Origin: Geodermatophilus obscurus DSM 43160
GTDB taxonomy: Bacteria > Actinomycetota > Actinomycetes > Mycobacteriales > Geodermatophilaceae
Length of the DNA: 64,000 nucleotides
Direction of reading: 5' to 3'
Assembly (NCBI RefSeq): GCF_000025345.1
Contig: NC_013757.1
Span: 2,480,001-2,544,000 of the forward strand
A program made the position numbers and the translations under genes. The notes beneath the pieces were generated by a model. It searched no databases and was not told the DNA's origin. It was given only the letters and a program-made list of their open reading frames with translations. Below are positions 30,361 to 39,962 of the stretch, one piece after another; within the stretch, counting starts at the first letter, position 1; every line of letters starts with the position of its first letter.

Positions 30361-30412
30361 TCCGCGCCGCGACCGGGGTTCCGCGGTCCCCGTGGGGGGA
30401 ACACCGTGCCGT

Positions 30413-30565
30413 GTGACCGATCCGGACGGGACACCCGAGGTGGAGCAGCGGCTGGCGGAGGACCTGGACCCGGAGCGGCACCGGGCTCCGTCGGAGGGCA
30501 TCCCGCAGGAGCTGTCCGACGACGCGGGCGGGGAGGATCCCCCACCATCGGGAAGCGGCCGGTGA
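30413..30565 (+). CDS. Small acidic protein, first ORF of the selenoprotein operon
   Basis: 50 residues, very acidic: VTDPDGTPEVEQRLAEDLDP, then GIPQELSDDAGGEDPPPSGS. The start is GTG 30413 downstream of GGGGGGAACACC. The TGA overlaps the GTG of the thioredoxin-fused gene (GTGA at 30562-30565), so it is coupled to it. There is no recognised domain; it is probably disordered. A longer frame from 30230 exists but its extra part is arginine-rich low complexity across the tandem repeats. The coupling is the main reason to accept it. Confidence 0.45.
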   Translation: MTDPDGTPEVEQRLAEDLDPERHRAPSEGIPQELSDDAGGEDPPPSGSGR

Positions 30566-32046
30566 GCGCGGTGCCGCCGCGCACACCGGGGAGCACCCGC
30601 TCCGGCACGGACGGGCGCGGTGTAGGAGCGCCGGGCCCGGGCGGCGCCGGGCAGCTGCCCGACGGGTTGGTCGCCGTGGTCAAGCACGACTGCCCGACCT
30701 GCGTCCTGGTCGAGCCGGTGCTGCGCGGCCTCGGTGCCGCGGTGTGGTGCCAGGACGACCCCACCTGGTTCGACCACGACGACACCGCCCTGGAGCTGTC
30801 CTACCGCCTGGGTGTGGAGACGGTCCCGACCCTGCTGCGCATCGAGCACGGGGTGGAGACCGCGCGGACGGTCGGCTGGAGCCGCGAGCAGTGGGAGGCG
30901 CTGACCGGCGTCCCCGGGCTGGGGGAGGGCCTGCCCGAGCACCGGCCGGGCTGTGGGTCGCTGTCGGTCGACCCGTTCCGGATCGACGCGCTGGAGGCGC
31001 GGTACGGCGGCAGCCGGCTGGTCAGCCGCCGGATCGAGCTGGCCGACCTCGAGGACGAGCACGAGGCGCTGTTCGACCGGGGTTTCACCGACGGGTTGCC
31101 GGTCGTCCCGCCCACCCCCGAGCGGGTGCTCCGGATGCTGCGCGGCACGACTCGCGACCCCGGTGAGGTGGTCGCCGTCGTCCCGCCGGACCTCGTGCCC
31201 TGCACCGTCGAGAAGGTCGCGGTCAACGCGGTGCTGGCCGGCTGCCTGCCCGAATACCTGCCGGTCGTCCTGGCGGCGCTGGAGGCGGCGTGCGCGGAGG
31301 AGTTCGCCCTGCACGGCGTGCTGGCCACGACCCACTTCGCCGGTCCGGTCGTCGTCGTCAACGGGCCGGTCGCCGCCCGGATCGGGATGAACAGCGGGGT
31401 CAACGCCCTCGGCCAGGGCAACCGCGCGAACGCCACGATCGGCCGGGCGCTGCAGCTGGTGGTGCGCAACGTCGGGGGCGGCCGTCCCGGTGAGGTGGAC
31501 CGGGCGACCCTGGGCAACCCGGGCAAGACCGGCTTCTGCTTCGCCGAGCGCGAGCAGGGCAGCCCCTTCGCCCCGCTGGCCGCCGACCGCGGGGTGCCCG
31601 GGAACGCGGTAACGGTCTTCGCGGGGTCGGGTGTGCAGCCGGTGGTCGACCAGCTCAGCCGGGAACCCGAGTCGCTGGCCCGGTCGTTCGCGGCCTGCCT
31701 GCGCGTCAACGCCCACCCCAAGCTGCCGATGGCCTTCGACGCGATGCTCGTCGTCTCCCCGGAGCACGGCCGGGTCCTCCGCGAGGCCGGCTGGGACCGC
31801 GCCCGCCTGCTGGCCGAGCTGGACGGGCTGCTGAGGCTCCCGCCCGGTGAGCTGGTACGCGGCGCCGGCGGGATGGCCGAGGGCCTGCCGCCCGGGGTCG
31901 CCGCCGACGACGTGCCGAAGTTCCGGCCCGGCGGTCTGCTGGTGGCCCACGCCGGCGGGGACGCCGGGTTGTTCAGTGCGATCATCGGCGGCTGGGTCGG
32001 CGGCGAGACGGGGAGCACCCCGGTGACGCGGGAGGTACGGGCATGA
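30562..32046 (+). CDS. Thioredoxin-like domain fused to a UGSC-associated domain
   Basis: 494 residues. Residues ~32-115 look like a thioredoxin fold with a C44-PT-C47 active site (VAVVKHDCPTCVLVEPVL) and the cis-proline strand VETVPTLLRIEHG. A separate domain of ~330 residues follows: DRGFTDGLPVVPPTPERVL, PCTVEKVAVNAVLAGCLPEY, INS-type MNSGVNALGQGNRANATIGR and LGNPGKTGFCFAE. I know this second part only as an uncharacterised protein found next to UGSC proteins. It overlaps the selenoprotein start (ATGA), so both are made together. The CPTC site could reduce the selenenyl-sulfide of its partner. Confidence 0.75.
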   Translation: MSAVPPRTPGSTRSGTDGRGVGAPGPGGAGQLPDGLVAVVKHDCPTCVLVEPVLRGLGAAVWCQDDPTWFDHDDTALELSYRLGVETVPTLLRIEHGVETARTVGWSREQWEALTGVPGLGEGLPEHRPGCGSLSVDPFRIDALEARYGGSRLVSRRIELADLEDEHEALFDRGFTDGLPVVPPTPERVLRMLRGTTRDPGEVVAVVPPDLVPCTVEKVAVNAVLAGCLPEYLPVVLAALEAACAEEFALHGVLATTHFAGPVVVVNGPVAARIGMNSGVNALGQGNRANATIGRALQLVVRNVGGGRPGEVDRATLGNPGKTGFCFAEREQGSPFAPLAADRGVPGNAVTVFAGSGVQPVVDQLSREPESLARSFAACLRVNAHPKLPMAFDAMLVVSPEHGRVLREAGWDRARLLAELDGLLRLPPGELVRGAGGMAEGLPPGVAADDVPKFRPGGLLVAHAGGDAGLFSAIIGGWVGGETGSTPVTREVRA

Positions 32047-32585
32047 GGACGGTCCTCGACCCCACGGGCGAGCGCCGGGCGCCGGAGCGGGCCCTGCTGC
32101 CTCGCCCGGCCTCGCTGCAGGGCCGGACGGTGGGTCTGCTGGACATCAGCAAGGCCCGCGGCGACGTCGTCCTGGACCGTCTCGAGGAGCTGCTGCGCGA
32201 GCACGGCGCCACGGTGCGCCGGTACCGCAAACCCACGTTCGCCCGCGTCGCCCCGGTGGACCTGCGGCAGGAGATCACCGAGCACTGCGAGGTGGTGGTC
32301 GAGGCACTGGCCGACTAGGGCTCGTGCACGTCGTGCAGTGTGCACGACATCGCCGACCTGGAGCGCCGGGGCGTGGTGGGGGTCTTCCTCGCCAGCGAGG
32401 CCTTCGCCGACGCCGCGCGGCTGCAGGGCGCGGCGCTGGGCTTCCCGGTGCCCTGCGTGCTCGTGCCCCATCCGGTGCAGGACCGCACGGACGCCGAGCT
32501 GCGCGCGGTCGCTGAGGAGGTCTGTCCGGCGGTGGTGGCCGCCGTGACCTCGGGCACCGCGTCGCCGCGGAGCCCGTCGGTCTGA
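32043..32585 (+). CDS. UGSC-motif selenoprotein with UAG-coded selenocysteine
   Basis: Read through the TAG at 32316-32318, this gives one 180-residue protein. The first 91 residues (RTVLDPTGERRAPERALLP, QGRTVGLLDISKARGDVVLD, RYRKPTFARVAP, CEVVVEALAD) and the residues after (GSCTSCSVHDIADLERRGVV, ALGFPVPCVLVPHPVQ) are the two halves of the UGSC family. TAG falls exactly where relatives have Sec (UGA) or Cys. Residue 92 is thus predicted Sec in U-GSCTSC. A GC-rich hairpin follows at once. Ordinary gene calling would split it at 32318 and restart near 32340. The real stop is TGA 32583-32585. The family is redox-like but its reaction is unknown. Confidence 0.92.
32319..32348 (+). promoter_or_regulatory. 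Putative bacterial SECIS hairpin after the UAG codon
   Basis: Two mutually exclusive 8-bp perfect stems can form inside the coding sequence. Fold A pairs TCGTGCAC (32322-32329) with GTGCACGA (32340-32347), loop of 10. Fold B pairs GTCGTGCA (32330-32337) with TGCACGAC (32341-32348), loop GTG, putting the loop 19 bases after TAG with a leading G. Fold B fits my recollection of bacterial SECIS rules (loop about 16-37 bases after the codon, G at the loop start). Binding by SelB is inferred. Confidence 0.65.
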
Positions 32586-33565: not shown

Positions 33566-34381
33566 GTGACAGCGACCCAGGAACGGACCAGCAGGACCGG
33601 TGAGAAGCTCTCCGGCCGGGTGGCCTTCGTCACCGGCGGGACCCGGGGGATCGGGGCGGCGATCTCCCGCAGCTTGGCCGCCCAGGGCGCCGACGTCGCC
33701 GCCGGCTACAGCGGCAACGACGAGGCCGCCGAGCGCTTCCGCAAGCAGTTCTGCGACGACTTCCCCGACCAGGGCTTCTCCGTGCACAAGGGCGACATCG
33801 CCAACCCCGATGACTGCCGGCGCACCGTCGCCGAGGTCATCGAGAAGCACGGCCGGCTCGACATCCTGGTCAACAACGCCGGCATCACCGCCGACCGCAC
33901 TGTGCTGAAGATGACCGACGACGACTGGCGCCGGGTCATCGACGTCAACCTGTCCGGCGCCTTCTACCTGTCCCAGGCCGCGCTCAGGCACATGCTGGAG
34001 CGCGGCACCGGGCGGATCGTGATGATCTCCTCGGTCATCGGCGAGATGGGCGGCATCGGCCAGTCGAACTACGCCTCGGCCAAGGCCGGGCTGCTGGGCC
34101 TGACCAAGACGCTGGCCCGCGAGGCCGCGCACCAGGTGCAACGCTCCGGCAAGGCCGACGGCCTGGGCATCACCGTCAACGCCGTCACGCCCGGCTACAC
34201 CGCGACCGAGATGCTCGGGACGGTGCCGGACAAGGTCATCGATCAGCTCAAGGCCAAGACCCCGATCGGCCGGCTGGGTGAGCCGGAGGAGGTGGCCCGC
34301 GTCGTGCACTTCCTCGCGGCCGACGCCTCCGGCTACATCACCGGGCAGGTCTGGGGAGTCAACGGCGGCCTCGACATGTAA
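33566..34381 (+). CDS. phaB: Acetoacetyl-CoA reductase / FabG-like SDR
   Basis: 271 residues, classical SDR. It has VAFVTGGTRGIGAAISRSLA (cofactor loop), VNNAGITAD, the catalytic Ser in MISSVIGEMGG, and Tyr/Lys in NYASAKAG. The Asn is in VIDVNLSGAFYLSQ, and the tail is ADASGYITGQVWGVNGGLDM. A GYSGNDEAAERF segment after beta2 matches PhaB-type enzymes that favour NADPH and CoA substrates. There is an extra ~10-residue stretch (HQVQRSGKADGLG) after the catalytic helix. GTG 33566 follows AGGAGG. Next to a carboxylase and a ketoacyl synthase, it most likely makes (R)-3-hydroxyacyl-CoA; FabG activity on ACP substrates is the alternative. Confidence 0.82.
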   Translation: MTATQERTSRTGEKLSGRVAFVTGGTRGIGAAISRSLAAQGADVAAGYSGNDEAAERFRKQFCDDFPDQGFSVHKGDIANPDDCRRTVAEVIEKHGRLDILVNNAGITADRTVLKMTDDDWRRVIDVNLSGAFYLSQAALRHMLERGTGRIVMISSVIGEMGGIGQSNYASAKAGLLGLTKTLAREAAHQVQRSGKADGLGITVNAVTPGYTATEMLGTVPDKVIDQLKAKTPIGRLGEPEEVARVVHFLAADASGYITGQVWGVNGGLDM

Positions 34382-34430
34382 CCGTCGAGCAACGTCCCCG
34401 CAGGTCCCAGCCAGAGGAAGAGGTGTACGG

Positions 34431-39962
<5,532 letters not shown>

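Follow-up and report, generated by a model that had tools for sequence, protein, structure and literature searches.

The UGSC gene and its in-frame TAG

The window analysed here is a stretch of 64,000 nucleotides from Geodermatophilus obscurus DSM 43160, a member of the Geodermatophilaceae. Near its middle, a gene of the UGSC family is interrupted by a single in-frame TAG, which we read as a codon for selenocysteine (Sec). The features are listed below in window positions.

30406..32046, + strand: partner gene of the UGSC gene (true start uncertain), with a thioredoxin-like stretch carrying CPTC near the N-terminus, followed by a conserved uncharacterised domain
32030..32036, + strand: GGGAGGT, a likely ribosome-binding site ahead of the UGSC gene (by eye)
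32043..32585, + strand: predicted UGSC-family selenoprotein gene, type 1, of 180 residues with Sec as residue 92 (from translation, Pfam and NCBIfam)
32316..32318, + strand: in-frame UAG, read as Sec (from profile position, alignment column and matching tRNA-Sec(CUA))
32330..32348, + strand: SECIS-like hairpin with an 8-pair stem; its loop, G-U-G, lies at 32338-32340 (positions 23-25 if the U of UAG is position 1)

The ATG of the UGSC gene overlaps the stop of the preceding gene (ATGA). In translation it is followed by 90 codons, the TAG (codon 92), a further 88 codons and a terminal TGA at 32583-32585. The two halves match the Pfam family PF24696 (UGSC, cut-off 25 bits) independently, the N-terminal half at profile positions 1-92 of 172 (E 5.3e-17, 62.9 bits) and the C-terminal half at 94-171 (E 1.2e-17, 65 bits). 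The single profile position between them is occupied by the TAG, followed by GSC, and the gene translated across the TAG reaches 141.8 bits. In the NCBIfam family NF041046, 'UGSC family (seleno)protein', the halves occupy positions 1-68 and 70-146 of 147, with scores per half (54.7 and 68.2 bits) that both lie below the cut-off of 125. The initial annotation had placed the TAG at the Sec/Cys position of the family, between flanks belonging to one continuous protein, and the profile matches bear out both statements.

Searching 112 Geodermatophilaceae genomes gave 95 UGSC matches in 54 of them, 72 with TAG and none with TGA. Extraction and alignment covered 84 of the matches; the remaining 11 are listed without an inner stop. 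As the initial annotation had anticipated for an alignment with homologues, the column of the TAG is a Sec/Cys column in every aligned gene, holding TAG in 72, TGC in 11 and TGT in one, with no TGA or TAA. Judged from this alignment, the recurrence of TAG at a shared column is far beyond chance. The G. obscurus genome contains a second UGSC gene with one TAG (contig C1:3951125-3951628, minus strand), and a third, weak match without a stop (E 0.23) was set aside.

Elsewhere in the window, a single frame of 1894 residues spans positions 34278-39962; it has matches to biotin carboxylase and to biotin carrier and appears to encode a long fused carboxylase.

A conserved hairpin behind the codon

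The UAG is followed by a conserved hairpin with partial covariation, a putative SelB site. Its six core pairs and the AGT at codon +7, which provides G23-U24, are kept in all 72 TAG genes (33 distinct sequences); among the 12 Cys-form genes none has AGT at +7 and one has all six core pairs. Across these distinct sequences, pairing holds in 92.4% of cells and both sides have changed in 29 cells, values reached by none of 500 shuffles, and controls slid along the alignment are 21.6-52.7% paired. Two of the five covariation measures stay at the level of the shuffles (3 versus 2.9 for the number of pairs with changes on both sides; 4 versus 3.9 for further pair types), and in 10 of the 33 sequences the two outer pairs do not hold. 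Folding the single sequence gives a score that is unexceptional for such GC-rich DNA (z -0.67; 47 of 200 shuffles equal or beat it).

The hairpin overlaps codons whose residues are themselves conserved, and conservation was also followed at synonymous sites. In the two largest subfamilies, which comprise 55 of the 72 TAG genes, Ser at +7 is written AGT in 36/36 and 19/19 cases, while AGT accounts for 3 of the 262 Ser codons elsewhere in TAG genes. Over codons +4 to +11, which were picked with the hairpin in view, synonymous entropy is 0.05 versus 0.59 in one of these subfamilies and 0.04 versus 0.46 in the other (permutation 0.0005 and 0.0017). Among UGA-coded UGSC genes, all 11 viewed have a hairpin at the same place, 8 of them with the exact stem of the window; the single Cys form viewed beside them is without it. 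In the SECIS of E. coli fdhF, bases G23 and U24 are important. Like the hairpin here, that element lies in frame immediately after the Sec codon and has G23-U24, but its codon is UGA and its stem and loop differ; the sequence used for this comparison was confirmed as fdhF.

Of the 35 window genes in a rough GC3-based set, 31 end in TGA, three in TAG and one in TAA. UAG therefore still serves as an ordinary stop. The initial annotation had argued from four TAG-ended genes that recoding must be local, and the use of UAG as an ordinary stop stands with three TAG ends recovered, not four. The hairpin should mark a recoded UAG off from these ordinary stops.

Selenocysteine machinery and codon use across genomes

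The genome encodes a tRNA-Sec of 92 bases with the anticodon CUA at C1:1689368-1689459, which scores 65.1 bits against the Rfam tRNA-Sec model (cut-off 47); the six other matches of the same search are Ser, Gly, Leu and Met tRNAs. SelA, SelB and SelD surround it in one locus, with matches to TIGR00474, TIGR00475 and TIGR00476 that each exceed the NCBIfam cut-off, and SelD appears by eye to be a Cys form. The four genes that the initial annotation proposed to look for, tRNA-Sec(CUA), selA, selB and selD, are all present and stand together; its refuting condition, absence of any tRNA-Sec(CUA) or SelB, does not apply.

Of the 112 Geodermatophilaceae genomes, 108 yielded a tRNA-Sec, and the other four are drafts that are 72-82% complete. 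Of 110 matches 109 were read, leaving out a second copy in one genome (G037), and the anticodon is CUA in 101 and UCA in 8. Counted by genome, CUA occurs in 101 of 108, and UCA alone in seven, which represent three genera and are all drafts. All 72 TAG-coded UGSC genes sit in CUA genomes. The UCA tRNAs of the seven sister-genus genomes are identical to the CUA tRNA of G. obscurus at 80-85 of 92 bases, and differ from it in the anticodon loop (CTTCAAA versus CTCTAAA) and in one pair of the anticodon stem. A sample of 396 genomes from the phylum, G. obscurus included, gave 46 UGSC matches. Two are its own TAG genes; the other 44, in 28 genomes outside the Geodermatophilaceae, comprise 34 with TGA, none with TAG and 10 without a stop, several of these ten being partial and two below the family cut-off. 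The code boundary within the Geodermatophilaceae is apparently new.

One of the 101 CUA genomes (G058) has two tRNA-Sec genes, one CUA and one divergent UCA; the two loci are L085:1173-1263 (G058:C17) and G058:C11 (in L134). Frames that look transposase-like by eye lie some kilobases away from the UCA gene, which is possibly an acquired second Sec tRNA or contamination.

A further Sec site of G. obscurus lies in a formate dehydrogenase (FDH) with TAG in the context QARI-U-HSATV (L235:1723-1725, near C1 365116), the one TAG-bearing gene among four PF00384 matches in the genome. FDHs of two UCA genomes have TGA at the Sec site. A TIGR01591 search of 14 genomes gave 14 matches, none above the cut-off, with inner stops (TGA) in two UCA genomes only. 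The flanking residues indicate that the TAG-coded FDH is of a different type from those of the UCA genomes, so that the comparison is one of Sec sites and not of one orthologue. Among the five PF00578 (AhpC) matches in G. obscurus, none has an inner stop.

How the UAG is read

The existence of Cys forms, 12 among the 84 aligned genes, gives some room to the idea that the TAG arose by sequencing error or nonsense mutation, in a pseudogene or at what should be a Cys codon. Yet 72 genes of the family share TAG at the same column with open flanks, synonymous sites behind it are almost frozen and a matching tRNA exists, all of which make this reading extremely improbable. Pyrrolysine, or an ordinary amber suppressor tRNA, is suggested by ARAGORN, which labels the CUA tRNA 'tRNA-Pyl'. 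Against that label stand the score of this tRNA against the Rfam tRNA-Sec model, its close identity to the UCA tRNA-Sec of the seven sister genomes, its position beside selD, selA and selB and the alternation of the residue with Cys across the aligned genes; decoding of this kind is hardly credible.

Two separate proteins, a 91-residue N-terminal part and a C-terminal part started at the GTG at 32340, would make use of open frames that both halves do possess. Each half, however, covers just half of the family profile, the GTG start overlaps the hairpin and would leave GSC out of the product, and the family reads through the column as TAG or Cys. Such a split is very unlikely, if slightly less far-fetched than the two readings above.

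We are highly confident that the UGSC gene instead encodes one full-length selenoprotein, with SelB, the hairpin and tRNA-Sec(CUA) together recoding UAG to Sec. Sequence comparison establishes the position of the codon, the tRNA, the Sel genes, the conservation of the hairpin and the way in which codon and anticodon vary together. With the hairpin at 32330-32348 as its guide, SelB would bring Sec-tRNA(Sec) with its CUA anticodon to the UAG at 32316, and in this strain Sec would be inserted at residue 92 in presumed competition with release factor 1. A UAG without such a hairpin would remain a normal gene end. In most Geodermatophilaceae, the Sec codon would have changed from UGA to UAG in step with the anticodon of the tRNA, a direction that we infer, and the form of the UGSC SECIS hairpin would have been retained through the change.

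A candidate Sec-type solute-binding protein

Between tRNA-Sec and selA, from C1:1689651 onward (L009:6652 onward), lies a gene for a family-5 solute-binding protein with an in-frame TAG after GEGHW, assigned to PF00496 via intact relatives. The motif is GEGHWU-V/A/I-ID, and by eye no signal peptide is evident. The gene adjoins tRNA-Sec in G. obscurus and in five of the seven loci of named records. Downstream of the TAG, the G. obscurus copy has a one-base frameshift (L009 downstream of 7317), unlike its relative in L073, an intact gene of 566 residues; the shift is owed either to decay or to an assembly error.

Within the Geodermatophilaceae, 17 matches were found in 14 of the 112 genomes (E <= 1e-40), and all have a stop at the GEGHW site: 15 TAG, one TGA in a UCA genome (G073) and one TAA in a UCA draft (G074). 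The gene with TAA (L084, G074:C70) also has a frameshift upstream. In the phylum sample (E <= 1e-25), all 25 matches other than that of G. obscurus, from 23 genomes of one other actinobacterial family, have one TGA, whose position was checked in 11. The seven loci of named records, partly from the same genomes, comprise five with TAG and two with TGA, one of the latter in a Pseudonocardiaceae draft. Over all these searches, the genes lie in L009, L072-L083, L237-L243 and L244-L254. No Cys form was found at E <= 1e-40 in the family or E <= 1e-25 in the phylum sample. Behind the presumed Sec codon, a hairpin with the loop GUG occurs in 15 of the 17 family copies and in all 11 viewed outside it; the copies of G. 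obscurus and G073 have CUG instead. A structure model built from six sequences was set aside (pLDDT 40.9).

Sec in an ABC substrate-binding protein is likewise described for SaoX and SaoB (PMC13188914); compared with that account, the family here is PF00496 and its motif GEGHWU. Two of the solute-binding proteins were tested against the NCBIfam SaoX and SaoB models, with no match at E <= 0.01. The term PF00496 is absent from the accessible portion of a 2026 review of prokaryotic selenoproteins. A literature search that lay mostly outside subscription journals found no paper on a Sec-type PF00496 family, and the family is apparently new. These TAG- and TGA-bearing genes probably make up a selenoprotein family not described before, in which a natural change of Sec codon is recorded. 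Taken with UGSC, FDH and the anticodons, they would place the switch from UGA to UAG inside the Geodermatophilaceae, apart from the three UCA genera.

The partner gene and a likely redox role

Against Thioredoxin_2, the partner gene scores 17.1 bits (E 0.0071), below the cut-off of 27. A homologue lies near the UGSC gene in 41 of 42 other loci examined, which include TAG, TGA and Cys forms, and the one miss (L023) is at a contig end; in 19 of the 42, the thioredoxin-like part was picked up as well. In 30 Geodermatophilaceae loci, the partner stands before UGSC in 15 and after it in 14, always on the same strand, and is absent from one. The second UGSC gene of G. obscurus (L011) has a thioredoxin-reductase-like frame before it (by eye) and a partner homologue after it.

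A Trx-like fold has been proposed for UGSC (PMC2398784). The single-sequence model of the protein has a pLDDT of 51.7, and its top fold matches in the PDB are WrbA and SsuE, with TM about 0.3; from this low-confidence model no PDB match arises at E <= 0.001, and a sequence search at E <= 10 returned no relatives in the PDB. The neighbouring genes make a redox role for UGSC likely. The Sec and Cys of the UGSC motif probably act as a redox pair, which the partner may serve through its thioredoxin-like part.

Relation to known systems

Mukai 2016 is said to be the first report of UAG-programmed Sec in the Geodermatophilaceae, and reportedly showed the presence of Sec in protein for relatives. The initial annotation had credited that work with UAG-programmed Sec in Geodermatophilus and Blastococcus, which is right in substance, according to PMC5330540; Mukai 2016 is among the references of PMC8124441. 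PMC5330540 describes three Geodermatophilaceae genomes whose tRNA-Sec has the anticodon CUA, a UAG-coded AhpC in Blastococcus, and FDH and UGSC-motif selenoproteins reported in its reference 56. UAG-coded UGSC selenoproteins in the Geodermatophilaceae are already published, so the core finding confirms one more case of a known variant, and the description of the locus as an instance of a rare code variant was accurate in that sense.

The present case shares with the published one, as described in PMC5330540, the bacterial family, the codon, the tRNA-Sec(CUA) and the protein families (UGSC-motif and FDH). Beyond it go the family-wide survey, the conservation of the hairpin, the UCA sister genera and the further Sec-type protein family. 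Known UGA-coded UGSC selenoproteins (PMC2398784; PF24696, NF041046) have the same family and Sec position, but their codon is UGA, whereas that of the window gene is UAG.

Significance

Standard annotation would cut UAG-coded Sec genes in two, and such splitting may have let an entire protein family escape notice. Since the Geodermatophilaceae include both UCA and CUA genera, the switch can be traced gene by gene. The meaning of a codon would appear to change cheaply here: the form of the UGSC hairpin is kept, the tRNA anticodon and the codons are switched together, and UAG remains a stop elsewhere.
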